Positions 4,481 to 32,868 of a stretch of 64,000 bases of DNA are shown piece by piece. This stretch comes from Ulota crispa. Lineage: Eukaryota > Streptophyta > Bryopsida > Orthotrichales > Orthotrichaceae. Location: assembly GCA_963920765.1 (NCBI GenBank), contig OY987245.1, forward strand, positions 10,928,727-10,992,726, given 5' to 3'. The notes under the pieces are model-generated. The model made no database searches. It worked only from the letters and a program-made list of their open reading frames with translations, and was not told the origin of the DNA. Made by a program: the position numbers and the translations under genes. Every line of letters begins with the position of its first letter. Position 1 is the first letter of the stretch.

Positions 4481-4489
4481 CGTAAGTAA

Positions 4490-5880: not shown

Positions 5881-8666
5881 ATGGCGCAGCTGCAAGATGA
5901 CGGGCAGTACGTGGGTGACGAGTACATGGTGGTGGACTTTGAGGATGATGCGGACGAGCAGCTGCAGGAAGCCAGGGATAGAAACTCGCTCGACTCAGAT
6001 TCAGATGATGAAATTGATGTGGTGAGTGGGCGTTACTTAGGGTTATCCTGATTCCCGGAACGTTTGTTTGGTTGCGTGTGAAGTGGTTTGCGTTAAATGT
6101 TTCTTTGATGCACCTGCAGATGAGTAAAGTATCTGATACTACTGCTGCGCAAGCCAGACGGGGAAAGGATATTCAAGGCATTCCATGGGACAGGCTGCAA
6201 TTTACAAGGGAGAAATACCGAGAAACGCGGCTACAGCAGTATAAGAATTACGTGAATTTGCATCAGCCGCATGATGAACTAGAGAAGGTGACTGATGATG
6301 TTTTCTTGCTGTTTTAATATCACGGTCATAATATGCACACTTACACTATTTTAAAGTTTTTAGCATTTTGGAGCTATATCAAGCTTCATTTGCGTTTGGA
6401 TTCGTGAAACTGACAATATATTTGGTTGAACATGAGAAGCTGTAATTTACATTGTCCGTTATCCATTATTCGTGTGTTGTCAACACACTTACTATTTTCA
6501 CATGCGCAGGAGTGCAAAATGGTACAGAAGGACAAAGAATTTTATCATTTCCGACACAACACTAGATCAGTTAAATCTACTATCGTCCATTTTCAGGTCA
6601 GCTACTTCCTGACTAGTACTGTCTTAATCTTTGCCTAGTGTTGCTTTCGTGCGAACGATTTTTAGGCATGATTTATAGGTGATCTAGGTTACACTTTGTT
6701 ACTGAGCGCTTAATATTAGACAGTTTCTATGCTGAGACCAAAAATATTCTCTTTCTCTTACTGGCTTGTGGTTTGTGGCTGAATGATGATCAGCTGCGAA
6801 ATCTAGTGTGGGCGACTTCCAAGCACGATGTGTACCTTATGCACAGCTATTCAGTGATGCACTGGTCGCCCTTGACTAGGAAAGGAACGGAAGTGCTCAA
6901 TGTTGCAGGCCCTGTTGTTCCAGCTTTGGAGGTAACTTGTCAGTTACTCCCTGAATTTGTAATTTTATATTCCATCCCATCAGCATTTTGAACCATTTTT
7001 TGAGTAATTGCGTCAGAATTTGTGGGGAGAGGTTTTGGTTTTGGAAGGTTTTACCCCTCTGCTTTTTGATTCAGCACGATATTAGTCGTAGTCATTGTTG
7101 CGGTTCTTGTCGGACACTAGTAGCAGTCAGCAGTTAATATTAGGAGATGAGAAGAGGTCAGTAAGTAGCGATGGAATTTGGTTCTTTTTGTCTTCGATTG
7201 AAAAAGCGCGGTATTGAAAAAAAATCTATTCATTAGCCCTACTATATATCTGCTCATCTTTATAAGCTATTATATTATGCGTAGGGTCAGAGAACCCCGT
7301 GGCCCTATCAACATGGGTTGGGACGTGTTCAGATCAGCACTATGTGTGTCAAACGCAACCTCCTTGTAGCAGGTGGATTTCAAGGCGAGATGGTTTGTAA
7401 GGTAAGCTGAGCTACCCTATCTGACGTGTGCTTAGATAATCTGCTGCACATATTTGGGCGTTGGCAATGCTTGTTGCTGGTATAATTTGTATTTGACAAC
7501 GAAAAATATGCGCTAATCATGTTCTGTCCTTTCTGAACAGAACCTAGATCGTCCTGGAGTGTCGTATTGTGCCAAGATTACCCATGATGACAATGCAATC
7601 ACCAATGCTATTGACATTTACGATAATTGCAGGTACCTTCAAGTGAAAAAGATCTCTTCACTGTCATTTTTTGGCTTTTGTGTAATACCATTATCATGAT
7701 TTCTGATTTTGAAGATGTGGTTGTTTGCTTTTGATGAGTGTGTTTGGTAAGCTCTGGTTTGTTTGGGAGCGTTTTGCAGTGGAGCAGTGCGATTGATGAG
7801 TTCCAATAATGACTCAGTTGTCCGCGTCTTTGATTGCAACAACTTCTCTGTATTGAGCCGATTCTATTTCCCTTGGGCTGTAAATGTAAGATTTCTTGTC
7901 CATGTTCGTCCTTATTTTTCTTTGTTTGTACATCCTGTCTGCTGGTTTTGCTCTGGAGTCGTATGCATTCAGTGGGCCTTCGCAAAATTCATATCTATGT
8001 TTGCATCGTAAATACCTCTAACTCTTCGTTGTTGTGGGTACAGCATACCTCTGTGAGTCCTGACAGCAAAACCGTGATAGTCGTGGGAGATAATGCCGAT
8101 GGAATTTTGGCTGATAGCCAAAGCGGCAAGGTGAAGTCCTCGTTATCAAACATTTGCTTTTGTTTGTTTGGTATGACTAAGGCATTAGTATAAATTTTTG
8201 GTAATGCACGTTTGGTCATCATTTAACACCATGTTACTCGCAACGACAACAGGTCATAGCAACTTTGAGAGGCCATCTGGACTACTCCTTTGCATCAGCT
8301 TGGCACCCAGATGGACGTGTCTTTGCGACTGGAAACCAAGACACAACCTGCCGCCTATGGGATAATCGCTATTTGGGATCCTCTTTGGCGGTTCTGAAAG
8401 GTCGCATTGGTGCGATACGCTCAATCAGATTCACAGCGGACGGGCGTTTCATGGTTATGGCAGAGCCTGCAGATTTTGTGCACGTATTTGATACTAAGCA
8501 GGACTACTCGCATTGCCAGGAGATCGATCTCTTTGGAGAAGTGGCAGGAGTCTCTTTCAGCCCTGATTCAGAGTCCCTTTTTGTTGGAGTGGCAGATCGA
8601 ACATATGGGAGCCTGCTTGAGTTCAACCGAGGTCACGCTAACGCTTATCTGGATTGCCTCATTTAG
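5881..8666 (+). CDS. Plant WD40-repeat protein, 449 aa, 9 coding exons
   Basis: Coding exons are 5881-6021, 6120-6287, 6510-6596, 6794-6931, 7285-7401, 7541-7632, 7780-7885, 8044-8130 and 8253-8666; all have GT..AG borders and joins keep frame. The product resembles the plant family annotated as 'WD repeat-containing protein C2A9.03-like', whose role is unknown. The N-terminus (residues 18-46) is very acidic. Conserved blocks include LVWATSKHDVYLM, VKRNLLVAGGFQGEMVCK and, in the last exon (from residue 313), a textbook repeat from GH (319-320) to RLWD (346-349), followed by two more repeats. The repeats probably form a propeller used for protein binding. The start was chosen as the first ATG after a leader acceptor at 5864; it gives normal family length. 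The last exon and 3' flank are duplicated at 20621. Confidence 0.93.
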
Positions 8667-9577
8667 ACATTGGCTGCAAGCTCTTATGGCGAGGCAAATA
8701 TTTTGTCAGCGTGAATTGGTTGCGAGGTATCGTGATCTATCAGTATTTATATTTCCGAGGAGCGTATGTGCGAATGGTGGGATATTATACGCGTATTATC
8801 AGCAAAACGGAGCTTTTGGATTACACGCTTAGTCGTGGATTCTTTTATCTGTGGGTGTGAGACATGGGACGCTGCTGCTAATGCCTACAGTTACAGGGTT
8901 GCAAATGGCAACTAGAAAAAGCTGCGCCCCCATTGTTTAAACAGAGGTCGTTTCTGTGAATAGATGGCAAAAATGATAAAAGGGCATGTATATTGACAGT
9001 GATCCTGAGTGGGAGGCTTTTATGGCGTCCGATGTTTAGCAGAGCCCGTGATTCGGAAAGGTAAAGAGAAGAAGACATGGTTTGACACTAGCCTTGCCAG
9101 TGCTCATCGCCAACTCTTAGAAAATAGAGAAATGGAAAGGAGTGGTTTCCTTTCAGAGGTGTGTAATTGTGTCCAGTTAAAAGACACCTGGCCTTTCAGG
9201 CCACAAAAGGTTAGCTTTTGTCAGTGAATCATCGACTGTTCGTCAAGAACTCATGGCTTTGAGTGATGATGATGCTTTAGCTGATTCCTTTGGAAGTACC
9301 CTTTTTGTAAATAACTGAGCGTAACCTACACTGTTCAGGTTGTTTTGGTGCTGGAGTGTACATTTTTTCTCGACTGGAACAGTTGGTGACAACACAATCT
9401 GCTGAGGAACTACCGGACTCACACAGTTATGTTTAGTTTGTCTAAGATTTGATTTCATAGGATGTGCTGATGTTTTTGTAAATTGTGTGTTTTGTCCAGT
9501 AGCAATGCTTTGTGTTCTAAGGTATGAGTGCTCACCATTGGCCCTGTCTTTAATTCTGACAACATAATCATGAATGG
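8667..9577 (+). other. 3' flank of the WD40 gene
   Basis: No coding potential is seen. The first 510 bases are repeated without visible change at 21035-21545, and from 9181 on the second copy differs at roughly one base in ten. The 3' untranslated region and poly(A) site of the WD40 gene must lie here, but no single signal is decisive. Confidence 0.5.
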
Positions 9578-9579
9578 TA

Positions 9580-10160
9580 CTCCCTCTGTCCCAATATAAA
9601 GCTCCAAATTAGGCATAGTTCTTGTCCCACTAAAGAGCTCCTTTTGCTAATTTCAATTGCTGAGAAAGCCTTTGTCATGTCCAATGATCTCATGGGGGCA
9701 ATGATCTCATGGGGGCAAGTCTCCTAACAAGTTTGGCCTTGCCCACATGAGGTACCATTGTTGCTACTAATCTTCAAATCATCAATAATGAGGAGCTAGC
9801 AACATGTACAAATATGGTACTTTTTTTTTCATGGAATTTGGGTGCCCAAATGGTAACATCAAAGTTAGAGTTTTGCACACATTTGATAGATGGCATATTG
9901 ATTCTAGAATGCATGTGTCATTAGTACAAAGACTAAAATAATGAGGAGTTGACATCATTCACAAACTATGCACAAATATGGTACTTTTTTCATGAGATTT
10001 GAGTATCTAAATGGCAACATAAAAACTAGAGATTTTGCAAACATTTGATAAATGATATATTGATTCTAGAATACATTTATCACTAGCATAATGACTAAAA
10101 ACAAATAGAGTTAATCCCCATGGAAAAGTTTTTTGGAGCTTTATAATGGGACAGAGGGAG
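9580..10160. mobile_element. Stowaway-like (Tc1/mariner) MITE, 581 bp, TA target
   Basis: The ends read CTCCCTCTGTCCCA at the left and its complement TGGGACAGAGGGAG at the right; the inverted repeat extends about 29 bases. The element is flanked by TA at 9578-9579 and 10161-10162. The paralogous sequence near 22020 reads through ATGGTAGTTCCC with a single TA, so the uninterrupted target site is visible. The ends match the well-known plant Stowaway terminus. Inside, a block of about 160 bases is repeated (9786-9945 and 9948-10115). No transposase is encoded. Confidence 0.93.
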
Positions 10161-10529
10161 TAGTTCCCATTTGCCTCGCTGTTGTGGATTGTTGAAAACA
10201 ACACATGTCACACTTACCAAATTTGAGTGATCATGTAATGGTTTTCATCCTAATTGACAATATTGAAAGAACTTACTTGCTTTTAGTGAATCAAATTGAA
10301 GTACGTACTGTGAAGCAGTCTTGATTTTCATGGCCCCAAAATAGGAAAATGCAAAACAAACACTTATTCCCTACAAACTTGTTTATCGTTTTCAGCATTT
10401 TCCAATCGAATTCCATCCCAGCATGGAAAATTCACCCCCGAAGTCCCTGATTTTTTAAGCAATGTTCTTGCAGTACAAGGGTATCAGCAAGCTCCATGTT
10501 TTTTGCAACTACTGAGGTGGACCTCATGG

Positions 10530-10628
10530 CCATCACATGGTCATCACATGGCCATCACATGGTCATCACATGGCCATCACATGGTCATCACATGGCCATC
10601 ACATGGTCATCACATGGCCATCATGTGG
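10530..10628 (+). repeat. Minisatellite, 11-bp unit, 8 perfect copies plus one variant
   Basis: The unit is YCATCACATGG, with C and T alternating at the first base; the last unit is changed to CCATCATGTGG. The paralogous locus at 27200-27232 has only two perfect units plus the same variant end unit. The array therefore differs in length between the two segmental copies. Confidence 0.95.
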
Positions 10629-11296
10629 AACTCACCAACAATTTTCAATGCCTTCTTTTCAAGAGCTCAGCTTTAACAGTGCACTTTTTTCTGGCAAAAA
10701 GAAGTCAGTTTTGCCAATTTTGACAAATTTAGATTAATGTGGGTTAATCACTCCATTTATTATCCAATGAAATGTGGATAGTAAAAAGATGGCAATTTGA
10801 AAATAAATGCTTTGAGCCTTACCATAGAATCCCTATATCTTTTTCTATGCATTGAGCTCCCTAAAATGTTTAAAATGTCTATCCTCGTACTTGATGTGAA
10901 ATCTTTATTATTGAGTGTCGAGTGTGTTATAAAGCATCAAGTGTATGTTTGTCATGGGAAATTTGAAATTCTTTATTAAAGAAGAGGGAGGAAGAGGGGA
11001 AGGGAAGGAAAGGGAGGGTGAAAAGTCACCGATATTTTGAGGATGGGAGGGCAAGGAAAATGTAATGGGAAAGAGGGTAAAGTCATTAGAAATTTGAGGG
11101 GGGAGGGAGATGAAAAGGGAGGGAAAAAGAGTATGAAAGTGAATCACCAAAAAGTTACCAAAAATTAAGAGAGAGATGACACAAAGCTCATGTAATACAT
11201 ACTTATATGCTTATAACATGTGGCACATTGTATTTCCATAAGCAAATTGTAGGATCTCACTAGCTTTAGTACAAATAAATCTTAAGGCATCATATT
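10629..11296. other. Spacer shared with the second segmental copy
   Basis: No gene is seen. The stretch aligns with 27233-28195, apart from an insertion there at 27354-27655. A purine-rich block of GGGAGG-type words at 10980-11130 is present in both copies (27890-28055), which explains the long antisense proline/serine-rich open frame as a composition effect. Confidence 0.6.
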
Positions 11297-11612
11297 GAAA
11301 TTTCATGGATACCCCTTAAGTTTGCAATATTTCCATAAATACCCTTGCTTTTTTATAAATTACACAAATAACCTTGGACCATAATTTTTAGGCATTTATT
11401 TGTTGTGATTATACTTCCTTCATGACCAATGTTGAAGAAGGGAATGCAATGAAACAAAAAAGAAGCAACGTGCACATAAAAAAAGAAGGGACTTGGCATG
11501 CACAACAAAACAAACACCTGGAAATTTTGGTCCAAGGGTGTTTGTGTGATTTCTATAAAAGCAAGGATATCTATGTAAATATTTCAAACTTCGAGGGTAT
11601 CCATGAAATTAT
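11297..11612. mobile_element. MITE with AATTTCATGGATA ends
   Basis: The left end contains AATTTCATGGATACC and the right end its complement; a second inner inverted motif is TTGGACCA/TTGGTCCAA. A homologous element of similar size lies at 60528-60837. It is absent from the second segmental copy, where the shared sequence stops at about 28195. Superfamily not assigned. Confidence 0.7.
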
Positions 11613-11650
11613 CACTTGATTTAAACTTAAAATATATATATATTGAAAAA

Positions 11651-12089
11651 GGAAATTGATATGTGCACACTTAGGGTTTGATATGTGCACACTTAGGGTT
11701 TGATATATGCACACCAAGGGGGGTAAATTTCAGATATTTACCATCAACAAGTTGAATTTGGAAAATTTCAACTCACATTTGGATTTAGAGACCTTGATTT
11801 AGTCTATAACCATGAAGGAGGTTACAATTGAACAACTCCTACTGGAAAAGCTTAGCTAGGGAGCAAATTATTATTTTTACCCTTGTCTATAAAGCTAAAA
11901 AGCTAAGCTTTTTGACTAGGTGTTGTTTGATTGTAACCTCTTCCATAGTTCTAGACTAAATCAAGGCCTCTAAATCCAAATGTGAATTCAAATTTTTTCA
12001 AATTCAACTTATTAATGGTAAATATCTAAAATTTACCACCCTGATGTCCATATAACAAACCCCAAGTGTGTCTACAATATATGAATTCC
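11651..12089. mobile_element. Foldback element, family FB copy 1
   Basis: The two halves are near inverted copies: GGTAAATATCTAAAATTTACC-type words lie on both sides, and the ends carry GTGCACACTTAGGG and its complement. The family has further copies at 23403-23805 and 29788-30188, with ends that differ but centres that match (GAGGTTACAATTGAACAA and complement). The first end word is itself tandemly repeated here at 11661-11710. No coding capacity. Confidence 0.8.
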
Positions 12090-12202
12090 TTGGTTTAAAC
12101 CAAATACAAAAAGGTAGGCATTTTGAAAGCCATGATATGAGTTTGTTGTTTGGACATAGCAAAACTTTAGGGGTGAAGTAGTATTCATTAATTAAAAATT
12201 AA

Positions 12203-12511
12203 CCCTTAAAGAACAATTGGGTGGCTGTGGCCTACCCACACTATAACTTCAACAGTGTTTATAGTTTCAACACTGTTTTAGTTAATGGGCAACAATAGTA
12301 TTGCTTCTAAAAGTTTCAAAAGTCAATAGTGCATGCCAACCTCATGAAAATTACAATAAGAATAACTTGGGACCCAAGATTGTGATTTTAGGTTACCTAA
12401 AAAAATAAAAAAATATGAGTATATTTGATAAGATTGTTATTTACCTTCTATGATGGATCAGATGAAAAACGACTTTTTTCTGATGTACAGATCCTCATGA
12501 GCGTTTAGGGG
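12203..12511. mobile_element. TTAA-target MITE
   Basis: The element starts CCCTTAAAGAAC after TTAA (12199-12202) and ends GCGTTTAGGGG before TTAA (12512-12515). The ends agree with the TTAA family described at 21549. Its right edge lies 13 bases before the RecQ promoter-leader begins. Confidence 0.6.
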
Positions 12512-12524
12512 TTAAAACATGAAA

Positions 12525-13647
12525 TGGAATTGAAAGATTCCCCGGTATCAGACATGGTTGGCGGGTATCGGGGGGGGGGGGCAAGGGTGGTGGTAGGGGC
12601 CGGGTTGTCTGGAGGGGAACCCTCCGCTGCTGACACCCAAGGTCCTTCCACTCCAGTTCGTTTTCCACTGCAGCACCTCCTCCCTTTCTCTACCAAACCG
12701 CGCTGCTCCGCTCCGTCTCCCGCTCCATTTCTTTTGCAACCGCGCTGCTCTATCTCCCGCTCCGTCTCTCCCACCACGCTCGCTTCCTCGCTTCCTCACT
12801 CGCTCACTCGCTTCCTCTCTTCGACTTACCACGCCCCTGCTGCTCCTCCCTCCTCTCCTCTCCCTCGTCCCTCCCGTCCCCGGCCGTCATCGCTCCTCCT
12901 GCTGCTCCTGCTGCCCCTGCTGCTCCTCCCGCTGATCATTTAGTAAGTTATGTTGTGTTGTTGTGCTTGCCGTGGTTTCATTCCGATTCCGGTGCTTCTT
13001 CTTCCCTCACTCATACCTGCATCCTCCTCATCCTCATCGTCGTCGTGCCCGCCGTGCTCACCACATTGCTAGGACACACCTCGCCCTGGACCAAAAGCCA
13101 AAAAGACCAAAAAGAAAACAGAAAAGAGAAAACTGTGCACCGTATTCATCAAGGTTTGCAGATTCTTCTTCCTCAACACAGCCATCGACCGACGCCGCAG
13201 GTGCTGATCTTGTTGTTGCAATTATTAAAAACGTGCAAGGTGTGCATCGATGCTTGTTTTTTGTTTTGTTTTCCTTGTTTCTGGTTTGAAAACAATTTGA
13301 TACCTATAATTGTAGAGAGAAATTTGCTTTTGATGGAGATCAGGGACGATTGATTAGTCGCATTTCGTTGTCGCTGGTGATGGTTTAGTAAAAAGATTAG
13401 GTCAGTGATGTTATTTGTTGTTCCATGTCGGGAGTGTACACAACATTGTACTCGGTTGTTGTGAAAGTAAAGAAGCTTTTGTTTGATGGAATTCGGTTTA
13501 CTGTAGTTGACTGAATTTTGAGCATTTTGTAATGTAGGAATGGTAAAAGTAAAACCGTGGAACGAAGGGCTAATCATTAGCCTACATTAGGAGGCGGAGT
13601 TTTGTAGTGTGACTAGTTGTGTTAGATTGTTCTTAGGGTTGAAAAAC
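12525..13647 (+). promoter_or_regulatory. Promoter and 5' leader of RecQ, duplicated at the invertase gene
   Basis: This GC- and CT-rich block is repeated at 31700-32868 with about 90% identity judged by eye. It holds pyrimidine-rich tracts (12640-12930) and CTGCTC triplet runs, typical of plant core promoters and leaders. A donor GTAAGT at 12943 is kept in both copies, so the transcript probably has an untranslated first exon ending at 12942. A possible acceptor CCGCAG at about 13200 is also kept. The homology ends at 13647, 28 bases before the RecQ start codon. Open frames through it are low-complexity and differ between copies, so they are not called genes. Confidence 0.7.
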
Positions 13648-13675
13648 GTGCTTATGTTTTGGTTCAAGCTGTACT

Positions 13676-16600
13676 ATGGAGTCCGATCTGGAGCAGCAGC
13701 TGCGTTTGGTGGACCAGGAGCTTCAGCAAGTGCAAGGTGCATTCGTTCGTTCTATTGTGTATTTGCTCTGGCGATAATTTGAGGTTTTGCGATTCTTAAA
13801 TTGTGGAATTACTTAGAGATTAGTGTATAATGTAAGATAGACCGCACATAATAGTATTACAGGTGAATAGCCTTTGTTTTTAATCGTTAAACGGCAAGAG
13901 CTCTGTAATCTTGGAGACTTTTGTCGTTTTGGAACGTTCTGATTGTTCTCTGTTTTGCAGCGTCGTAATTAGTTTTGTAGTTGAGAATGTGATTTGATGC
14001 ATTGTTTTCTGGAAGCGTGTTTATGTCTTGTAATAACGTGATATGCAGATCAAATACAGTCGCTCATTCAGCATCAGGAGAGCCTGCTTGAACAGCAAGC
14101 TGAACTCCAGCAGCTACTCTCGTCTTGCAGGTAATATTTGTACTTTCGAGTCTGGAATTGGAGTGGTAGTCTTCTTTGTTTTCGTAATTTTATTTTTTTC
14201 AAGACTGCCTGGTACGGTTTAATTTGCAGCAAGATCATCTTCATCTGGTTCAACGTCTTGATAAGTCATCTAAAATGTATACACTTTAGAGATTGTAGAA
14301 ATCGCATTGGAAGTTATTGACTGTTTCTTCCTTTCGTTTGTATGCAGGGACGTTGCAGCTCATGATGCGAATGGTAGCAGTGCCGGAGCATCTAAAGCAG
14401 GAAAAGAGAACTGGTCGGGTACCTTTGAATGGGACCAACGAGCTGCTGATATTCGCCTGAATCTTTTTGGCATCAAATCGTATCGTCAAAATCAGCATGA
14501 GGTATGATTTCTTCAGTTTTGGTTCTCAAATTGTAATACTCTTTTCCTATCTGGCTGAATTATAAATTTGCATTGAATGGAGTTTGTGTGTCCTTTTTCG
14601 AGCTACATACATGGGAGTAGATGGCACTTCTCGGGTAATACGTTTTCTCTTTGACGGGTTGCGATGACCAGAGATTGTGTATTGCTCTTTAACTTGGGAA
14701 CTGATGTGTTATTTGTTTGTGACTTGGCCAGATCATTAATGCAATAATGAGTGGAAGGGATGTAATTGTAATAATGGCAGCGGGTGGTGGAAAAAGTCTT
14801 TGTTATCAGCTACCAGCTTTATTACGCTCTGGAACGGCCCTCGTGGTCAGCCCTCTATTATCCCTCATCCAAGATCAGGTACGAGTGTATAACACTTTAA
14901 ATTTAATTTCAATGCATGTCATTCAAATTGTTGAAATCCAACTTCATCTTTGCTAGGCATAAGAATTGCTGATTCTGTCAGCTTCTTAAGTGCTCTTTGC
15001 ATTTGTGTCTTTCAGAATTGCTTAGGTGGGCGCTCTTGGCATTGTATGTGCAGGTAATGGGCCTCACTGCCTTGGGTATTTCAGCTAGTATGCTCACGTC
15101 AACTACATCGAAAGAAGAAGAGAAGTCCATCTATAAATCCCTTGAAAAAGGGGAAGGTGATCTGAAGATCTTGTATGTGACGCCTGAGAAGGTCGCTAAA
15201 AGCAAACGCTTTGTATCTAAGCTGGAAAAATGCAATCACGGTGGCCGCCTCTCTCTAATTGCTATTGATGTGAGTTGAGTCTTATCTTTCCCAAGTGCAT
15301 TTTAGGGTTGTTCTTTTATGGACTTACGCTTATTTTTATATCAAGTCGATATTGAAAAGGTTTCTAATTTTGCAGGAAGCACATTGCTGCAGCCAGTGGG
15401 GTCATGACTTCCGTCCTGACTATAAGCAGTTGGGCATTTTAAAGAAGCAGTTCCCCAGAGTGCCTATCATAGCGTTAACCGTGAGTGTGGCCTTTCTGAC
15501 ACGATTTTGTCTACAACATTTGGTAATTTTGAATTTTACATCTCTCTGTCAAGCAAAAGCTGTAAGATACTTAGCTTCATTATTTGAGGCAGCTGTAGTT
15601 ATTACGCTTGCAATAGAATGGTTAGGTCCACTTTTTTTCATGTTTATTCTAATAACAAGGAATAGGATGATATACTATTTGGAGCTCAGTGTTAAGAGAA
15701 TGTTGTGTGCAAGGCTACGGCTACAGAGCGTGTTCAAACGGACCTGAGGGAAATGCTACAAATCACGCGTTGTGAGAAGTTTGTCAGCACAGTCAACCGT
15801 CCCAACCTTTTTTATGAGGTGCTTAGAATCTGAGGATATTAATTTTCTGCAATTTAATATACGCCAATGTGAAATGCTAGTTGTTCTGGTATCTTTTAAT
15901 TTTCTTATAGGCGGTCCAATAAATACTTTGTTGCGTCAATTTGTCAAAGATCTACTATAATATGTTACCGGTTGCTACGCTGCAGAGCTCAAATTTTGAG
16001 GCTTTAGGCCTTACGCGGTCTTCAACCACGTGACTTTGTTAGTGTTGGATTGGCGTTTGTTTAGGTGCGTGAGAAGAAGTCCAACGGAAGTGCAGCCATT
16101 GATGACATTGCATCATTCATCTTAGACAAGTATTCTGGGAAAGAATCAGGCATTGTGTATTGCTTTTCCCGGAAAGAGTGTGAGCAGGTATGACTAATTT
16201 CATACATTTTACATGTTGAGGCTACATTCAAAGACTTTCGTCTGGAGCTCGCTTCCGATAACTATTTTCCTCAGATGCCTTGTTGATGTATAGCAATTGA
16301 TTTTCCTTTGCATTTATTTTGTAATCTTTATAAATCCTTCCTTCAGGTATTCGCAACTTTGTGATATGTATACTCAGGTTGCAGAAGAGCTCCGGAAGCG
16401 GGGGATTTCAGCCGCTCATTACCATGCTGATATGAAGCCTGAAACAAGATCATCTGTTCATACACGGTGCAAAGTCTAGCACGTTTTATGATTATGTGAA
16501 GCTAAATTTGAACTCTGACCCGAATTGTGTCGAAGGAGAGTTTATTGTTTGTTCTCTTTAGATTTGGTGAAACTGTTCTTTGATCATAACCAGTCGTCCT

Positions 16601-21548: not shown

Positions 21549-21619
21549 CCCCTAAATGCCCACGGTGCCAGATTTCAGTGTTAGAAACACCACATTTTGG
21601 TGTTGTGGGCATTTAGGGG
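21549..21619. mobile_element. 71-bp MITE with TTAA target duplication
   Basis: The element starts CCCCTAAATGCCCAC and ends with the exact complement GTGGGCATTTAGGGG. It is flanked by TTAA at 21545-21548 and 21620-21623. The paralogous site in copy 1 (9177-9180) has a single TTAA in the same context, CCAGTTAAAAGACACC. Such exact TTAA targets are known for piggyBac-type transposons. Longer elements with the same ends are spread through the window. Confidence 0.93.
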
Positions 21620-22199
21620 TTAAAAGACACCTGGCCTTTCAGGCCACAGAAGGTTAGCTTTTATTAGTGAATCATCGACTGTTCGTCAAGACTCATGGTT
21701 TTGAGTGATGATGATGCTTTAGCTGATTCCTTTGGAAGTACCCTTTTTGTAAACAATTGAGTGTAACCTACACTGTTCAGGCTGTTTTGGTGCTGGAGTG
21801 TACATTACTGGAATAGTTGATGACAACATAATCTGCTGAGGAACTACCGTACTCACACAGTTATGTTTAGTTTGTCTGAGATTTGATTTCATAGGATATA
21901 CTGACGTTTTTGTAAATTGTGTGTTTTGTCCAGTAGCAATGCTTTGTGTTCTAAAGGTATGAGCACCTACCATTAACCCTGTCTTTAATTCTAACACCTC
22001 CAACATAAATCATGAATGGTAGTTCCCATTTGCCTCGCTGTTGTGGTTTTTTATAAACAACACATTTTACACTTCCCAAATTTGGTAATGATGAGTGATC
22101 ATGTAACGATTTTCATCCAAACTGGCAATATTGAAAGAATTTACTTGCTTTTAGTGGATCAATTGAAGTACTGCATTTGCAGTCCTGAACCCCTAAACG

Positions 22200-22592
22200 A
22201 CCCAGCGTGCCGCTGCGGCCAAAATAGGGTATTTTTCCCGTATTTAGAGGTGTTGTTGTTTTGGATTTTGCTTGGATTTTTGAGGGTTGTGTATTGCTGT
22301 TTGTCTCCACCTTTTGCGATGTTCGGCATGTTTTTGCAATTGTTTTTCCGATTTTGCAAAGCGTTTGTATTGGAGGTGGGTTACAAATACGTAGCTGGAA
22401 CGTATCTGCGACTTATGGATCCTTGCGGTGGATCCTTGAAATGAACACGCTGCTAGAGTGCCAAGAGCAAGCGCTCTCGTCTAGCTGCTCAGATTCACAA
22501 TCCGCATCAAGAAAAGAACAAAAATCAGATTTGTGTCACCTTAGAATTATGATACAGCCAGGATTTTATGGTTCCCTATGGTCATTTAAGGG
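22200..22592. mobile_element. TTAA-family element
   Basis: It starts CCCCTAAACGACC and ends GGTCATTTAAGGG, inverted copies of each other. The right flank is TTAA (22593-22596); the left flank is TGAA, a one-base change. Its interior is GC-richer than the surroundings but shows no recognised protein. Confidence 0.7.
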
Positions 22593-22596
22593 TTAA

Positions 22597-23382
22597 CCCC
22601 TAAGTGCTCAGGGTTGAATCGGGAAAATGAGGCATGGTCCAAAAGGGGGCCATGTTTGAAAACATTGTGTGCCCCAATTGGAAAATTAGATCGGGGAGGA
22701 TTCACTGTTGAAACAACAAAAGGGTGCTTGATGCACCAGTCCAAAAATTTGCAAAACTTTTGACTGCCCCATTTTGGAGATTATAATAGTCAAAGTATAG
22801 TTGACTATGTGGCAATCGGTCAATTTTAGGGGGGTTTGTGGATGTGGACGCAGAAATTCATGCCTCAAGGGAGGCTCTTTTTGATGAAATTTAAGCAGGG
22901 GGTGCAATTTACAAGTATCTTACTTGTTGCTAAATTTGGTGATGTTTTGACATCCACAAGGTGCTTTCTGAGAGGCTTGAAGTTGCAAGGCGTACACGGC
23001 ATGGTGGACAATAGACAAGGGAAAGGTATGGTTTTGACCTCCACAAGGGCACGGCTCCCTATGGTACATTTGCAAAACACTTCTCTAGTTTGAGGCATGC
23101 GTGCCAAAACACCCCTAACGGTATGGAACTGGCCATATCCAGTGGTCTCTATCCTCGTGCCCTAAACCGCACAAAATGAGATTATAGCGCACCATTGTCA
23201 TACTAGACTTACAAGATCCACCCTTGTACAAGTGGTGAAACCCCATTGCCCACTATGTAGCATGAGAGTAGTACCGTAGCCTAAAGCAGGTACAATTTTC
23301 ATAGCAGTACAATTTTGATTTGGACCTTATTTTCAAGAAAGTCTGATGTTGGGAGGTTGCATTTTGGCATGTGGGGTGAGGG
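22597..23382. mobile_element. Probable TTAA-family element adjoining the previous one
   Basis: It begins CCCCTAAGTGCTCAGG straight after the TTAA that closes the preceding element and may end at GTGAGGG before TTAA (23383-23386). The left end is a clear family match; the right end is weaker. An open frame at 22865-23107 on the - strand is not conserved with anything recognised. Confidence 0.4.
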
Positions 23383-23402
23383 TTAAAGTAATTTATTTAA
23401 GG

Positions 23403-23805
23403 GGAATTGATATATGCACACTTGGGGTTTGTTATATGGAGGTGGGGGGTAAATTTTAGATGTTTATCATCAACAAGTTGAATTTGGAAAATTTGAATTC
23501 ACATTTGGATTTAGAGACCTTGATTTTGTCTAGAATCATAAAAGAGGATACAATTGAACAACGCCTAATGGAAAAGCTTAGTTTTTTTAACAAAGAAGGG
23601 TAAAAAAAAATATTTGCTCCCTATCTAAACTTTTTCATTGGGCGTTGTTCAATTGTATCCTCTTTTGTGGTTTTAGACTAAATCAAAGTCTCTAAATATG
23701 TGAATTCAAATTCTCCAAATTTAACACGTTGATGATTATAAATATCTAAAATTTACCCTCACAAATGTCCATATAACAAACCCCGGGTGTGCATATGTCA
23801 ATTCC
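23403..23805. mobile_element. Foldback element, family FB copy 2
   Basis: The ends are long inverted repeats: GGAATTGATATATGCACAC at the left and its near complement at the right, continuing through GGGGTTTGTTATATGGA. The inside folds back with GAGGATACAATTGAACAA and complement. It shares the centre with the elements at 11651 and 29788. Confidence 0.82.
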
Positions 23806-24382
23806 CTATTTAAAAGCATCTCATATTTTAGCTGGTTGTGTTGGATATAAGTATGGATTTATAAATCACATTATGCCCTAAGTTAATGTTTACTTAGAAT
23901 TGCATACAAGACATCACTTTTTGATAAACTTTAGAACCAAGAACATGAGATTTCCAAAATCTTGGTAAGGCAAAATGAAAATTCAACGGGACTACCAAAT
24001 CCCAACAATTTTTATTTTTCTTGAGCCTATTACAAATTACAATGCAATGCAGTTGGATTATGGCATTAAATTAATTTCATAGAAATAGTTGGGATATGGA
24101 ACATTGTGCTGAAAACTTGTTTAAGAAATAACTCCCAAGAGGGTCTCCATTTTTTCTGCACCTAAATCTTGACCAAAATTTCATTTTACTAACAACAAGA
24201 TCTTTAAAAAGTGCTGCCATGCAAGCATTTCTAAGGGCCGCTTTACATATGGGGGCCGGGCCAATTTGGCTTGGGGCCAATTGCCTCAAATTTCAACCCA
24301 CATTTTGCTTAAAGCTGGCCTCTACTACTAATTAAAATAAGATTATTGTGAGGGCCAATTGTCTCATATGTAAAGGTCTTAA

Positions 24383-25438
24383 CCCCTAAATCCCTAAACC
24401 CTTTTTCTTGTCAAAATCACTAAAAACTGCCATTTCTGAGGTAATAAGTAGAAAAGTAGGATTTTTTTTTTTTTTGGAACTTCAACCATAGGATCTTGCC
24501 CTAGACTATGGGAAGTACTTGTGGAAAAAAAATCAGCTCATTCTAAATGTAGATTAGTGAGATATTGACATTTGAAGTGACAAAAAAAAATTCCCTACTG
24601 CCCAAAAATTTCAGAAGCCTTTGACCACTCATATAGCAAAAAAATTGCATTGCACAAAGTTGAGGTTTATATTTTTCATGTAGAAGACCAAGTCAGGTAT
24701 ATGTGGGAGAATTTTCAGATCAATTGAAGGTGTACAACATACTTTGTAAAATCCTGCAATGTTGGAAGGTCATGAAATTTGTAAATACACTAGACAAAAT
24801 TGAAAGATTTATGCAAAATTTAGATTAATGAATCACTCTAATCCCAATGGTGAAAACCTATAACTCATATTGTAGTACAACTTGACAAAATCAAAACTTT
24901 AAAAAAACTTATATAGATTGCTCAAAAACAGATAATTAAAAAAAATTAGGGGGGGCAGTGGAGAAAACAAGTTTGAAGGGTGTGCATCTCAGGTCCCATT
25001 TGACCCCATCACCCACCCTCTTGCACTTTTGTCCCACAAGACTTGCAGCTGCCACGCAGCATGTTTAGAAAAAGAAGAGTAAGCTTAACCCTTACCAATT
25101 TTGTAATATCGGGTGCAACCAGCGACTCCACTGATTCCAAGATTTCCATCTGCCCATCCAAGTTGCAATCCTGCCCTATTTATGTTGCCCCACATTTGAG
25201 TCAAACCCACATACAAAGAGGGTTAGCTGCCCAAATTGCCCCATCTCCATTTTTTTCCAAAAAAACATGCATAACTTTTCTGTCAAATGTCGGAATGGGG
25301 AAAAAATTAGATTCCCATGTAGGTCATTAAATTCCCCACCTACAATAAAAGTTTCAAAAAATCTCACAAAGTAGTTTAGCCATAGGCACATGCCCAAAAT
25401 CCCATTTGTCCCCCGAGGGGACAATAGGGATTTAAGGG
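24383..25438. mobile_element. TTAA-family element nested in a Harbinger-like element
   Basis: It starts CCCCTAAATCCCTA after TTAA (24379-24382) and ends TAGGGATTTAAGGG before TTAA (25439-25442). The right subterminal block TGCCCAAAATCCCATTTGTC recurs near 46560 and 49150, showing further relatives. Confidence 0.8.
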
Positions 25439-26112
25439 TTAAGGCCAAGGAGTCAGGCCAATTCAATAAAGTAAAGCCATCTTTACACTAGAGGTGAGAA
25501 GTTGTGACAAATCTCTTATGGGTCATGGCTTGTTTTCAAAAAGCTAGCCTTTGGAGATAGTGGCTTCTTGTTGCAATGTAAAGTGAGAATATGCCACAAT
25601 ATTTTTTTAAATGAATTAGTTTCTTTACTTTTTACATTTTACTTTTTATTTTTTAAATTGAAACAATGACATGATGATAGACACCAAAAAAAATAGAGTT
25701 GGATAGAGGGGGACGTTGCCAAAATACGCATGAACCCTAAACATGAAGTTTGAAACAAACTCTTAAGTTTTTTGTTTACATTATCAAGGAATATTATACC
25801 AATTGCCTTCATTTATTTTCTTTTTATCAACCACAAAACAATTATATTATTTTTGGTTATGAATAAGTTCTTCCCAAAATCAAGTTTTATGCAAGTAGTA
25901 TCTAGCATAATAAAGACTATGAGTTATAGATCATCAAGAGTATCTTGCATAAAAGATGATAGAAAACAAATTAACACATCAACATATGCAAAGTTTACAT
26001 AAAGACTTCTTGAGAAGCATAGAAGGAAAAAATAATTTGCAAAATAGAGACAAAATATACAAGCCTAATGTTTTTTATACACATAAGAACTAGTTTAGCA
26101 AGCTAAATACCC

Positions 26113-26272
26113 CATGCCCTCATGCCCCCCATCCCCCATCCCCCCATCTTCCCATGGCTCCCATCCCGCCCATCCTCCCCATCCTCCCCATCCCCCCATC
26201 CTCCCCATCCCCCCATCCTCCCATCCCTCCCATCCCTCCCATCCCTCCCATCCTCCCCATCCCCCCATCCTT
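26113..26272 (+). repeat. CCCATCC-type minisatellite
   Basis: Units of CCCATCC, CCCCATCCTC and CCATCCCTC are repeated over about 160 bases. The array produces long proline- or glycine/tryptophan-rich open frames on both strands, which are composition artefacts. Confidence 0.9.
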
Positions 26273-26598
26273 TGGCTTCTCTCGTGACCCTGGCTCCAAG
26301 AATGGATTTGATTGGAGAAAGAATAATATTTTTTGAAAAAATATATATTTTTAATGAAACTTGACATAGGCCCCAAGGTTAAGAATTGGCCTCCCACTTT
26401 GGGTGCACCCAATTCAGTGAGTTCGAGCCATGTCAGATCTTGTTTTTGTTGAATAAAATATTCATTTCACCAAATTGGCTCTTTCTCTAGGTGTAAAGGG
26501 GTTGGGGCTGATTTCAACCTTTTGTCCAATCACAAGTGAGGATTCTTGACCTTTGACATAGTGAATTGGCCTTGCCCCCATATGTAAAGTGGCCCTAA

Positions 26599-26974
26599 GT
26601 AAGCCAAGACTTAAGACATAGCAAGGGAATTCAATCCTTAGAAAAAATTAGTTTGCTTGGGAATTTCTCCAAAACAAATTTTTCTTGCGGCATTAATTAC
26701 AAAAAGAAGAGATCTCTTATGCAAAATCAAGTTTCTTTTTAGGAAACCAATAAATTTTGCACACTTACCAAGTATTGCAAAATTGCAAGCATGGGCTTGC
26801 TTGCATGAGAGAATTAGAAGCATAGGCCCTCTTGTATGAGGGAGGATAAAGACAAAAAAAAAAAAAAAAAAAAAAACCTCAAAACCACCGTGGGAAAAAA
26901 AAAATGTTTTGAAAAATGGAGCTCAAAACTAATTATCAAATATACCCAACTTTGAAATCACTACTGTGAACCTA
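26599..26974. other. Remainder of the insertion block, with a poly(A) run
   Basis: No gene is seen. A run of about 23 adenines lies at about 26855-26877. Homology to segmental copy 1 resumes near 26975 with GTCGATTTTCATGACCCC against TTGATTTTCATGGCCCC at 10321. Confidence 0.5.
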
Positions 26975-27353
26975 TAAGTCGATTTTCATGACCCCAAAGT
27001 AGGAAAATGTATAACAAACACTTATTCACTACAAATTTGTTTATCGTTTTCAGCATTTTCCAATCCAATTCCAACCCAGCATGGGAAATTCACCTCCAAG
27101 TCCCTAATTTTTTAAGCATTGTTCTTGCAGCACATGCCTTCCATACAAGGGCATCAGCAAGCTCCATGTTTTTTGCATCCACTGGGGTGGACCTCATGGC
27201 CATCACATGGCCATCACATGGCCATCATGTGGAACTCACCAACAATTTCCGATGCCTTCTTTTCAAGAGCTCGGCTTTACCAGTGCATTTTGAAAGAAGC
27301 CAGTTTTTGCCAATTTTGACAAATTTAGGGTGCTGTAAGTTAGTACCTCCATT

Positions 27354-27655
27354 TAAGGTAGGAACACCCATAAGCGTCAGTGATTTTGGAAAATCTGCGG
27401 AAGTGAATAGTGAATAGATGTAATTACAAGGATGTACAACATGTGAACATGACTTCTTAAAAGTGATTATGGGTGCAATGGCAATTTGCTCTTTAAAAAT
27501 TTACAACTTATTCTCACAGTATCCAAATAATACATTTGAAAATGTAAACTTATTTTTCTTTTGTTCCTAGTAGGATCCTATAATTTGCTAGATGTTTATT
27601 GATACTCATCATGATCAAAACCCTTAGTTTGATGCTTATGGGTGCTTCTACCTTA
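27354..27655. mobile_element. MITE with TAAGGTAG ends, about 300 bp
   Basis: The ends read TAAGGTAGGAACACCCATAA and the near complement at 27634-27655. The paralogous sequence near 10755 lacks it. A similar right end, ATGCTTATGGGGGCGGCTAC, occurs near 61840-61870. The superfamily is not assigned; TTA-type ends would suit PIF/Harbinger. Confidence 0.7.
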
Positions 27656-28195
27656 CTACCTAGTGGAATTTGGACAGTAAAAAGATGGTAATTTGAAAAC
27701 AAATGTCTTTGAGCCTTACAATGGAATCTTTAACTCTATATTCTTTGCACCTAGCTCCCTAAAATGTTTAAAGATGTCTAACTCAGCACTTGATGTGAAA
27801 TCCCTAGCTATTACGGAGTATAAAGTATCAATTGTGTTAAAAAGCGTCAAATGTATTTTTGTCATGGGAAATTTGAAATTCTTTATTAAAGAGGGAGAGG
27901 GGGAGGGCAAGGCAAGGAAAGGGAGGGTGAAAAGTCACCAAAATTTTGAGGAGGGGAGGGTAGGTAAAAGGCAAGGGAAAAGAGGGTAAAAGTCACCGGA
28001 AATATGATGGGGGAGAGATGTAAAGGGAGGGAAAGGGAGGGTGAAAAGTCACCAAAAAATTACCAAAAACTGAGAGAGATGGTGCAGCGCATGCAAGACA
28101 TACTTGTATGCTTATAACATGTGACACATTGTATTTCCATAATCAAATTGTAGGATCTCACTAGCTTTAGTACGATTAAATCTTGGGTGTTGTAT

Positions 28196-29514
28196 TCAAT
28201 TAAATTTGAACTATTCATGTTTTTAAGAACTATGCAAAACATCAAGAGATATCTCGATTGATTTGTAATTTCTTTCAAGCTGCAAATAAAAGTAAAGTGT
28301 AACTTTGTTTTTTTTAGTGTTTTAATTGCTTAACACCTCTAGCTACAAATTTTAAGTCAAATAACCACTATGATCAAACAATAAGCATTTAACATGTTGA
28401 AAATGCTACTACCGTGAATTTTTACTTTTTCACATTTTTGGCTGGAAAAATGTTTTATAGTAATTCTTTATTGTGCAATGTGTGAAGAAAGGATTACAAT
28501 GACTGTTATACATATAAATAACTCAAAACTTCTCAAAAAATGAAGACCAACCAACCATTAATAGCAACAAATAAATTCTAAAGGTGTTTGGAATATAGAA
28601 TATATAAATGAGAAACACACACCATTGCGTACTTTGGATTTCAATACGTTAAACTTGTAATTAGAATAATTTAATGATATCATTAAAATATTGACTGAAT
28701 AGAGATACTATATTTAGCTGAATCTTGACTATTCATGCAATTTTGAACTAATTTTGCAAAACACTAAGAGAGATTTTGATGTTGGTGGACACGTATCTTT
28801 CAATGTTTTGCAATAATTTTTGAATGTTTTGGTTATAATATATGCAAAATATATAAAGATCTCCCAAAGTCTTTCATATATCTCATTTCTTTTTGGATTA
28901 TTATTTCTAAACTTTGAACTAGCATTTGGGGAGAAACTTTGACCTCACTAGCTAGAATCATTTTCAACCAATATTTCATAGGCATGCACAGCATATTTTT
29001 CTATATATATATTTTGCAGATTATAATTTTTTCATAGAAGTTTTTTTACGCAGTAGTTTCAAACTTTAATTGTTGCTTTTGGCATTTCAACCAAATGACT
29101 TTGCATTGATAGCCAATTCTCCCCAAATATTGCATTGAGCAATACATATTTACTTAATTATGACAAAGAGACCTACTCAAATTGACAACTATTTCCATTT
29201 TTGGTCAAAAATTTGTTGATTTGTGGTGTATTGCACTATACACTAAATAGTGCATTTAGGTTGCTTCACACTACTTTCTTTACATTCTACATTATATAAA
29301 TACTTTTTGGTACTACAATAATTTTCATTAATAATTGGGCTTGACAACAATAATAAAATTGCAAGAAATCAAACTCATGGTGTCCATGTTGTAAACCGTA
29401 CAAAATATTATCATCTAAAAAGCTATACGTGCCTCCAAGTGACCAAATGATGAGGCCTAAGATAACTTTCCAAGGAAAGACAACCTAATTGTTGAGGCAA
29501 CCTAAATGCACAAT
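28196..29514. other. AT-rich spacer, no gene seen
   Basis: All frames are short. This stretch has no counterpart in segmental copy 1 and is either inserted here or lost there. No inverted-repeat ends were identified, so it could not be assigned to an element. Confidence 0.4.
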
Positions 29515-29594
29515 TTTGTGTGGTTTAAACCAAATACAAAAAAAGGTAGACATTTTAAAAGCCATGATTGAGTTTGTTGTTTGGACGTAGCAAA

Positions 29595-29737
29595 ACTACA
29601 AGGAAAACTGTCCAAAATGACAAAAATATGTCCAATCAACATGGCTAAATCTACAGAAATTGTCCAATTTGACAGCTTTTTTGTCATTTTGGACACATTT
29701 GGTCAATTTGGACATGTCAATTCAATTTCTTGTAGTG
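29595..29737. mobile_element. CACTA-like MITE
   Basis: The left end reads ACTACAAGGAAAACTGTCC and the right end TTTCTTGTAGTG, matching plant CACTA termini. The interior repeats words such as CAATTTGGACA and TTTTTGTCATTTTGGACA. Copy 1 at about 12165-12180 (GCAAAACTTTAGGGG) lacks the insertion. Relatives lie at 38699 (inverted) and 42767. Confidence 0.7.
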
Positions 29738-29787
29738 AATTCAAAGTAGTCATTGATTAAAACATATACTTTAAAAAAATGGGGTGT

Positions 29788-30188
29788 GACTAGGGAGATA
29801 TCCCCTAGTTGCTAGGGAGACACCCCATGCACACCGAGGGGTAAATTTTAGATATTTACCATCAAATTTGTAAAGTTTGAATTCAAATTTGGATTTAGAT
29901 ACCTTGCTTTAGTCTAGAACTACAAAGGAGGTTACAATTGAACAATGCCCAATAGAAAAGCTTAACTTTTTTTATAAACAAGGGTAAAAATACCAATTCA
30001 TCCCCTTACTAAGCTTTTTCTATTTGGACCCTGTTCAATTGTAACCTCCTTTTTGTAGTTCTAGACCAAATCAAGGTCTTTAAATCCAAATTTAAATTCA
30101 AACTTTCCAAATTTGATGGTAAATATCTAAAATTTACCCCCCATGTGCATGTGGGCGTCTCCCTAGCGACTAGGAGGTGTCTCTAGCC
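29788..30188. mobile_element. Foldback element, family FB copy 3
   Basis: The ends carry CTAGTTGCTAGGGAGACACC and the near complement, and the arms share GGTAAATTTTAGATATTTAC with the other FB copies. A further outer copy of the end word GTGACTAGGGAGACACCC occurs inverted near 30452-30476, so a larger element of about 29772-30480 is possible. Confidence 0.75.
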
Positions 30189-30499
30189 TTAAAAATGTGT
30201 GCAACCTTGATTTGCAGCTAGCTACCATAACATTGGAAAACCCGGGTGAAAAATTGGATGAAATCGTCAAAGTCCTCTCCAAGTGGGTACCACGTTCGCC
30301 AATTTTTGGATGAAGACGACTAATATTAGTAGATTTGATCAATGCACGTGCACACTTTCATGACTCTATCCATTTCTATCCAATATTTCCTTACCTGCTT
30401 GCATTGATGGATGCTTGTTGTGCAACCAATGAAAAAACCAATTTAAACCGTGGGTGTCTCCCTAGTCACTCCCAAAAAATGTATAGGGTCAAGCTCCAA

Positions 30500-30660
30500 C
30501 CCTAGTGTGATAGGCGCAATTAAGCGCAAGAGGGCGGAGCTAGAGGGCGTTTAATTGTGCGTATTGCACGAGGGCCGTGGCTTAACCCTGCGTTAAGCAT
30601 GGCCGGGCTCCACTCCGTGTGAGTTCGATCCCCGCTTGCAATTTGCATACCTGCAAGTCG
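30500..30660 (+). repeat. tRNA-like sequence, possible SINE fragment
   Basis: The stretch is GC-richer than its surroundings and contains GAGTTCGATCCCC (about 30611-30623), which matches the RNA polymerase III box B of tRNA genes. About 40 bases upstream GTGGCTTAACCCTGCG could be a decayed box A. No full cloverleaf could be drawn. A second box-B-like word, GTGAGTTCGAGCC, lies near 26420. Confidence 0.35.
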
Positions 30661-30774
30661 ATCCCCTTCTACTCACATTTAACAATGCAATGCACCATCA
30701 AAAATTTAAAGATACAGTGCACTATTAAACATATTTGTTGGTCTATTAAACGTGTGGATTTGTTAAGGCACTAA

Positions 30775-31290
30775 GGGCATCATCAATGCAGCACACGCAC
30801 TTGGGCAAGGCCTGGGACGGCAAAAACACTACTATTTTGACTAGTGTATAATTAGAAAATGAGGATACTATCTTTGGAAGCATATACAAAAACTCGTCTA
30901 ACAAATAAAATGACATATGGTATTGGAAATTGGACAATCAAACTAATGTCCATTGAAAAAATAGCTAAGGGACAAACAACACGGCAAACCATGCCTAATA
31001 AAGAATAATTAGATAATGGCACTCTAAATTCTGAATTTGGAGTGCCATTATCTAATTATTCTTTATTAGGCATGGTTTGCCGTGTTGTTTGTCCTTTAGC
31101 TATTTTTTCAATGGACATTAGTTTGATTGTCCAATTTCCAATACCATATGTCATTTTATTTGTTTGACGAGTTTTTGTATATGCTTCCAAAGATAGTATC
31201 CTCATTTTCTAATTATACACTAGTCAAAATAGTAGTGTTTTTGCCGTCCCAAGCCTTGCCCCATTCCGAGTGAATGCATTGAAGATGCCC
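30775..31290. mobile_element. Long near-perfect hairpin with Harbinger-like ends
   Basis: Two arms of about 250 bases are near-perfect inverted copies around a loop at about 31027-31035. Ends are GGGCATCATCAATGCA and the near complement TGCATTGAAGATGCCC. TAA flanks both sides (30772-30774, 31291-31293), the target size of PIF/Harbinger elements. The length and pairing of the arms would give a double-stranded RNA if transcribed. Confidence 0.88.
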
Positions 31291-31293
31291 TAA

Positions 31294-31679
31294 GAGCAAC
31301 TCCACCTGGCTTTCAAAAACAAGCCGGCAGCGGCTTAGTGCCGGTTCCGTGAGCATCGGGGCTCTTTTCTGTGCCCACTCGCGCGGGGTCTGGCCCGTGA
31401 GTTTGTTGATCCCGTGTTCCCAAACTTCACGCCCGCTGAATTTCGACAATTTGCCGATCAGCTCTTCTGCCAGGCATCGGGCTATCGATTCCGACTTCCG
31501 GTTTTATCGTTTGTTGCTTCCGGATTCCTCATTTCTCGCTTCGTAGTACTTGCTAGTTTACAGGGCTGGCTACGACCGAGCGAGTGTGGAGTTTCACTCC
31601 GATTGCGATATCTGGCATTCCCGGCCACAGCAAATCTTAATTTCACAGGCTTTGAAGTGCAGGACAGGTGGAGTTGCTC
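31294..31679. mobile_element. Harbinger-like MITE, TAA target, GC-rich interior
   Basis: It starts GAGCAACTCCACCTG and ends with the exact complement CAGGTGGAGTTGCTC. TAA flanks it at 31291-31293 and 31680-31682, the left one shared with the preceding element. The interior (31320-31640) is much richer in GC than the spacer and may be a captured fragment; no protein was recognised. It ends 20 bases before the invertase promoter-leader. Confidence 0.85.
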
Positions 31680-31699
31680 TAAGTCCGGCAGGGCTTAAC

Positions 31700-32868
31700 G
31701 GAATGTAAAGATTCCCCGGTATCAGACATGGTTGACGGGTATGCGGGGGCCAGGGTGGTGGTGGGGACTGGGTTGTCTGGAGGGGAACCCTCCGCTGCTG
31801 ACACCCAAGGTCCTTCCACTCCAGTTCGTTTTCCACTGCAGCACCTCCTCCCTTTCTCTTGCCAAACCGCGCTGCTCTGCTCCGTCTCCCGCTCCGTCTC
31901 TCCGTCTCTCCCCCCCCCCCCCCCCACGCTCACTTCCTCGCTCACTCGCTCTCTTCCTCTCTTCGACGTACCACGCCCCTGCTGCTCCTCCCTCCTCTCC
32001 TCTCCCTCGTCCCTCCCGTCCCCGGCCGTCATCGCTCCTCCTGCTCCTGCTCCTGCTGCTCCTGCTGCTCCTCCCGCTGATCGTTTTGTAAGTTATGTTG
32101 TGTTGTTGTGCTTGCCGTGGTTTCATTCCGATTCCGGTGCTTCTTCTTCTTCCCTCACTCATACCTGCATCCTCATCCTCCACATCCTCCTCATCATCCT
32201 CCTCCTCCTCATCGTCGTACCCGCCGTGCTCACCACATCGCTAAGACACACTTCGCCCTGGACCAAAAGCCAAAAAGACCAAATCAGAAAACAGAAAAAG
32301 AGAAAACTGTGCACCGTATTCCATCAAGGTTTGCAGAACTATATTATTCTATTCTTCTTCCTCAACACAGCCTCTCGACCGCCGTCGGTGTGCGCCGCAG
32401 GTGCTGATCTTGTTGTTTGCAATTATTACAAACGTGCAAAGGTGTGCATCGATGCGTGTTTGTTTGTTTTATTTTTGGCTTTCTTTTTGTTTCTGGTTTG
32501 AAAACAATTTCATACGAGAGAAATTTGCTTTTGATGGAGATCAGGGACGATTGATTATACGCATTTTGTTGTTGCTGGTGGATGGCTTAGTAAAAAGATT
32601 AGGTCAGTGATGTTATATGTTGTTGTTCCATGTCGGGAGTGTACGCAGTGTGTTGATTGTTGTACATTGTACTCGGTTGTTGTGAAAGTAAAGAAGCTTT
32701 TGTTTGATGGAATTCGGTTTACTGTAGTTGACTGAATTTTGAGTATTTTGTAATGTAGGAATGGTAAAAGTAAAACCGTGGAACGAAAGGCTAATCATTA
32801 GACTATATCGGGAGGCGGAATTTTGTAGTGTGAGTAGTTGTGTCAGGTTGTGCTTAGGGTTGAAAAAC
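31700..32868 (+). promoter_or_regulatory. Promoter and 5' leader of the invertase gene, duplicate of the RecQ one
   Basis: It matches 12525-13647 from GATTCCCCGGTATCAGAC to CTTAGGGTTGAAAAAC with scattered changes and small indels. It holds a run of 17 or so cytosines (31910-31927), CT-rich tracts, CTGCTC triplets and a conserved donor GTAAGT at 32088. The start codon of the invertase lies 1.08 kb further on, so the leader continues through additional untranslated exons. Confidence 0.7.

Follow-up and report, generated by a model that had tools for sequence, protein, structure and literature searches.

A RecQ helicase gene of Ulota crispa is flanked by the two copies of a direct segmental duplication, which are colinear, lie on the same strand, are low in copy number and have defined edges. 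The duplication was found in a 64,000-nt window (GCA_963920765.1, contig OY987245.1, positions 10,928,727 to 10,992,726 of the forward strand), and all coordinates below are those of this window. Duplicate blocks were mapped by self-BLASTN of the window and a finer comparison of two regions, and low-copy status was judged within the 64-kb window. Copy A (8249-13647) and copy B (20617-32868) were recovered almost exactly where the original prediction, made from the sequence, had placed direct copies of a multi-kilobase segment around RecQ, and self-BLASTN served as the dot-plot type of check that had been proposed. The predicted gene order was also found: the RecQ gene lies between the copies, and a leader block lies 5′ of both RecQ and an alkaline/neutral invertase gene.

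Seven blocks are common to both copies, colinear and all on the + strand, with E-values of 0 to 1.6e-23. Five blocks had been expected; their order and orientation were borne out, and the count was corrected to seven. Block 1 (8249-9180 in A and 20617-21548 in B; 932 bp, 99.9% identity) contains the last exon of a WD40-repeat gene and its 3′ flank. It is followed by block 2 (9176-9579 and 21619-22021, 90%), block 3 (10160-10304 and 22019-22171, 84%), block 4 (10306-10759 and 26962-27355, 72% with gaps counted), block 5 (10757-11283 and 27653-28184, 81%), block 6 (12091-12166 and 29521-29597, 92%), and block 7, the leader of about 1.1 kb (12523-13647 and 31697-32868, 84%).

The multi-kilobase segment is thus real, with its lengths corrected to 5.4 kb in A and 12.25 kb in B. 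The copies differ in length because some stretches are present in only one of them. According to the block limits, the A-only stretches between blocks are about 585, 807, and 356 bp long, and the B-only stretches are 75, 4790, 303, 1336, and 2099 bp long. At least two of these are clean insertions with an empty site in the opposite copy (585 bp in A and 75 bp in B). Several inter-block stretches, for example 11299-11610, 11688-12070, 23402-23806, and 29795-30183, are foldbacks that have related elements in other parts of the window, and they fall outside the duplication proper. An 11/22-bp tandem repeat (CATGGCCATCA) is present in both copies with different copy numbers (10525-10623 in A and 27195-27239 in B), and thus probably predates the duplication.

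On the left, identity between the copies starts 4 bases before the last WD40 exon, which begins at 8253 in A and 20621 in B. Of the WD40 gene, copy B therefore has only this orphan exon, directly preceded by the RecQ 3′ flank. On the right, identity stops at 13647 in A, 28 bp 5′ of the RecQ ATG, and at 32868 in B, 1,077 bp 5′ of the invertase ATG.

We searched the area outside both copies for further copies of the blocks at E 0.001, using 13 of the 14 block copies (block 1 of B was left out). None of the seven A blocks matched elsewhere in the window, and one of the six B blocks did so, over 63 bp at 76% (E 8e-6) near 44657-44717. This short match and the relatives of the inter-block foldbacks are what could be said for dispersed repeats that chance to share one order, the finding that the prediction had named as speaking against it. 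Bar the 63-bp match, however, no tested block recurs in the window, and the blocks include a coding exon and keep a single order and strand. With blocks nearly devoid of other copies, the dispersed-repeat reading is disfavoured within the 64-kb window, and we consider it extremely improbable.

Divergence between the copies is uneven. It was calculated per aligned block as the Kimura two-parameter (K2P) distance, and counts of differing sites were compared by Fisher test. Except for block 1, blocks with at least 140 aligned sites differ at 7-16% of sites (K2P 0.075-0.179), and the 75-site block at 4%. The K2P values are 0.083, 0.108, 0.110, and 0.179 for the four spacer blocks, 0.042 for the 75-site block, and 0.075 for the leader. 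Block 1 contains one difference in 932 bp, G at 8400 in A and A at 20768 in B. When it was split at the WD40 stop codon, 1 of 415 sites differed up to the stop and 0 of 514 past it, against 30 of 388 in the adjoining block (0/514 vs 30/388, p = 5e-12). The absence of differences in the 514 bases past the stop rules out purifying selection as the source of the near-identity.

Block 1 thus shows a sharp drop in divergence inside paralogous copies that coding constraint does not explain, and it fits a putative recent gene-conversion tract within an old duplication. The copies remain identical for 25 bases past the 75-bp insertion in B, and the end of the tract may lie anywhere from the insertion to 25 bases past it; because of this continued identity, we dropped the idea that the TTAA insertion had stopped the conversion. 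The single difference in block 1 changes G (A) to S (B). Homologues presumably carry G at this residue, and on this basis the conversion probably ran from the WD40 gene in A to the orphan exon in B. With an assumed neutral rate of 7e-9 substitutions per site per year, which may not suit the organism, the age of the duplication would come to roughly 5-13 million years and that of the tract to less than 0.1 million.

An identity of 99.9% over 932 bp beside blocks with 4-16% differing sites would also be expected if the near-identical block, or the whole of copy B, had been misjoined or gap-filled during assembly. However, reading one locus twice could not produce diverged blocks or independent insertions, and at most block 1 is suspect. 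An assembly artefact is, in our judgement, decidedly unlikely.

For the origin of the arrangement, we favour with moderate confidence an old local segmental duplication at a locus with the ancestral order WD40-RecQ-invertase, in which the segment was copied in front of the invertase gene and partly converted later. Copy A joins a WD40 gene that reads as complete, whereas copy B opens at the last-exon acceptor; the left edge of B is therefore derived. If B is one copied block, its right junction is derived too, which gives this ancestral order. The ancestral locus would have consisted of the WD40 gene, the spacer, RecQ with its own promoter/5′ untranslated region (5′UTR) leader, and the invertase gene. 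The copied segment would have begun at the start of the last WD40 exon and stopped shortly 5′ of the RecQ ATG, a length of about 5.4 kb that may have been smaller until later insertions added to it. A single copying event would have placed it between RecQ and the invertase gene in direct orientation. A copy of the RecQ leader would thereby have come to lie 5′ of the invertase gene, which may use it. Transposons would later have inserted independently in both copies, and much later, gene conversion would have re-equalised the first 0.93 kb, probably from A to B. We infer this order of events from the present sequence. An ancestral WD40-spacer-leader-RecQ order was among the options of the original prediction and agrees with this history; its proposal that a gene was brought in together with the duplication is less supported, since A is continuous with a complete WD40 gene.

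The bases just outside B, when joined, form a 7-bp inverted repeat that was equalled or bettered by 226 of 200,000 random junctions. Noticed after the fact, this stem gives weak support for a single insertion event. ACAG is present at both edges of B only if shared bases are counted, a weak and post hoc observation.

Several observations weigh against the favoured history. No strict direct repeat of 3-8 bp was found around copy B, and, as noted above, the near-identity of block 1 may reflect an assembly error. The right edge at 28 bp 5′ of the RecQ ATG would be just as likely had RecQ landed behind an existing leader. The acceptor of the last WD40 exon is also unexpected. Splice sites were scored with a small training set, the 20 introns of RecQ, and the leave-one-out range of RecQ acceptors was -3.2 to 12.6. 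The acceptor in A (8233-8253) scores -5.8, below this range, and 79% of AG sites are as high; the same acceptor is normal in the orphan copy B (20601-20621, 3.2), which is odd if the A junction is ancestral. The only explanation we offer is that the weak score in A may result from the small set of 20 introns.

The right edge leads to a second reading, in which RecQ was inserted into a WD40-spacer-leader-invertase locus, the segment was duplicated on both sides, and the invertase leader was taken over. The insertion would comprise little more than the RecQ gene itself, with 28 bp 5′ of the ATG and 225 bp 3′ of the stop, and a gene without a promoter survives only if it lands behind one, so that a junction near the ATG would be selected. 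However, such an insertion requires a third locus as the source of RecQ and a simultaneous duplication, whereas a single act of copying accounts for both edges of B. We regard it as rather unlikely.

Direct repeats that lie close together often arise by tandem duplication. Duplication of the segment together with RecQ, followed by deletion of the second RecQ so that the second leader was joined to the invertase region, implies the same ancestral gene order as the favoured history. Two events are nevertheless required, and the cut made in the second would have to lie 28 bp 5′ of the ATG. The parts searched for remnants of RecQ yielded none: the best match of DNA from 32869-33950 to the RecQ body had E 3.2, and the RecQ protein had no match at E 1 in 1-13600 and 20700-64000. 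This reading appears unlikely to us.

Under the favoured history, the invertase gene may use the copied leader, and we compared the leaders for signs of use. A core of the leader is pyrimidine-rich (78-80% C+T). GTAAGT is present in both leaders (after 12942 in A), with donor scores of -0.1 and 1.3 that are below 19 of the 20 RecQ donors. Acceptor-like sites before 13538 and 32759 score 3.4 and 4.5, and 13% and 8% of AG sites, respectively, are as high. The limits of the core were set after viewing the alignment. With the repeat stretch 12722-12821 excluded (20 of its 73 sites differ), 6 of 221 core sites differ, compared with 163 of 1417 in the four spacer blocks (p = 1.3e-5) and 71 of 860 in the rest of the leader (p = 0.003); against the 75-site block, p = 0.7. 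The comparison with the adjoining spacer block alone (p = 0.012) leaves constraint weak, and that of the core with the repeat stretch restored (26/294 vs 163/1417, p = 0.22) also counts against it. Constraint on both leaders is therefore weakly indicated, as the result hinges on the repeat exclusion and on the block used as a yardstick, and a second conversion would look alike in giving the same low divergence in the core. Together, the splice-like sites of modest score and the uneven conservation are weak hints that both leaders may be in use. We also considered the leader as a coding exon and rejected this, because frames 12634-13353 and 31683-32501 were without a Pfam match at E 0.01 and contain indels not divisible by three.

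The RecQ gene (13676-20391, + strand) has 21 exons, and all 20 introns are GT-AG. The model encodes 875 residues with no internal stop, and the gene between the copies reads as intact. Five Pfam domains, each above its cut-off, were detected in the part submitted, residues 1-686 of the 875: DEAD (104 bits), Helicase_C (81.5), RecQ_Zn_bind (38.9), RQC (28.6), and HRDC (25.3). By its predicted sequence, the protein is a member of the RecQ helicase family with the helicase core and Zn-binding, RQC, and HRDC domains. In a phmmer search against PDB, for which 60 of 145 matches were listed, the top match was DNA helicase Q1 (RECQ1; 4u7d, E 5.5e-164). Among the matches listed, helicase Q1 reached up to 550 bits, 'ATP-dependent DNA helicase' chains 540, BLM 414, RecQ/DNA helicase chains of 523-541 residues 325-347, Q5 310, and WRN 270. 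Judged by match scores, not by a tree, the predicted protein is of the RECQ1/RecQ2 type, nearer RECQ1 than BLM, WRN, or RECQ5. PMC6947026 includes a subfamily table in which human RECQ1 and the RECQ2 proteins of Arabidopsis and Physcomitrella are all assigned to RecQ2.

The neighbouring genes are also on the + strand. The WD40-repeat gene (5881-8666) was modelled with nine exons, joined by GT-AG introns and encoding 433 residues without an internal stop, the start codon being our choice. Its last exon (8253-8666), which opens copy A, matches WD40 at E 5.4e-14. The invertase gene (Glyco_hydro_100; 33946-37349) starts with the ATG at 33946, and its last coding exon lies in an open frame ending at 37349; the exons were located singly, not as a full stitched model. 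All four frames tested match Glyco_hydro_100, with E down to 1.2e-89, and the exon covering profile positions 37-91 was located by eye at 35094-35255. Rfam at gathering thresholds gave no match in the window. Both the genes and the mobile elements seen here suggest a land-plant origin.

At the derived junction between RecQ and the orphan exon, 20514-20620 (+ strand) is a possible intron of 107 bp whose splice scores are within the range of the 20 RecQ introns. Its acceptor scores 3.2 and its donor 4.6; 14% of AG sites and 8% of GT sites in the window are as high. This candidate could form an intron between the RecQ 3′ flank and the copied exon. An intron far 3′ of a stop codon is expected to expose the transcript to nonsense-mediated decay.

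Various repeats were observed in and around the copies. The A-only element of 585 bp (9578-10162) has 31-bp terminal inverted repeats (9578-9608 and 10132-10162) at TA, with the empty site in B near 22020, and we take it to be Stowaway/mariner-like. The 75-bp inverted-repeat insertion in B (21549-21623) is at a TTAA site that is empty in A (TTAA at 9177-9180); a TTAA target, which we take to be piggyBac-like, and a TA target, which we take to be mariner-like, are indistinguishable here. The B-only stretch of 4.8 kb (22172-26961) holds a foldback element and TTAA-type end motifs. The end motif TTAACCCCTAAAYG, seen at 21545-21623, has 18 sites in the window with up to two mismatches, against 1.0 expected, for example those at 12502, 22186, 22583, 24379, 40749, and 44273. 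Long near-palindromic foldbacks, 73-95% self-complementary, are present at 30768-31297, 57887-58110, 59394-60261, 60519-60837, 11688-12070, 23402-23806, and 29795-30183; that at 30768-31297 (95%) looks youngest. Region 51273-55560 has two 272-bp direct repeats, 94% alike, around reverse-strand frames, one of which has a retroviral SH3-like match of 21.2 bits, below the Pfam cut-off of 27; it is possibly a copia-type long terminal repeat element. A tandem repeat of about 224 bp, with two copies about 90% alike, is located at 4505-4958.

The near-identical 932-bp blocks are in direct orientation, 12,368 bp apart. With a crossover at these blocks, spacer A, leader A, and RecQ would be lost, and both the WD40 gene and the unit of leader B and invertase would stay complete. 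A near-perfect direct repeat of this length makes loss of RecQ by exchange more plausible, and recent conversion, if real, implies that the two sites do meet. Presence/absence variation of RecQ by exchange between the copies, as originally expected, is a reasonable prediction. A fuller proposal, that both leaders are live, that the RecQ2-type helicase and invertase genes share a duplicated promoter/5′UTR intron, and that recurrent exchange both keeps parts of the copies alike and deletes RecQ in some individuals, is highly doubtful. If it were true, a genome-stability helicase would segregate as present or absent by means of its own flanking repeats. If both leaders work, the locus would be a clean case of promoter gain through local copying, and if exchange occurs in populations, it would produce a defined deletion of a RecQ2-type helicase, a type whose Arabidopsis member, according to PMC6947026, has no in vivo function demonstrable so far.

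The event is a new example of a known and ordinary kind of duplication; it is well preserved, places a copied gene start before another gene, and contains an apparent recent conversion tract inside an older duplication. Further interest comes from this combination of a conversion-like tract, an open helicase gene, and a leader copy before a metabolic gene. Local segmental duplication can bring a gene start to a neighbouring gene. The locus resembles such cases in having a copied gene-start region 5′ of another gene, and differs in that the use of the copied leader by the invertase gene is presumed. Interlocus gene conversion between duplicated segments is the subject of a review (PMC3924837), and the likeness lies in a tract identical between close paralogous copies whose flanks are still diverged. 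Here, however, one partner is not a full gene but an orphan last exon, and direction and timing are deduced from one sequence. Like the RecQ2 subfamily, as presented in PMC6947026, the predicted protein has the helicase, Zn-binding, RQC, and HRDC domains, with helicase Q1 as its top solved relative; the protein itself is unremarkable, and the unusual part is its flanks.

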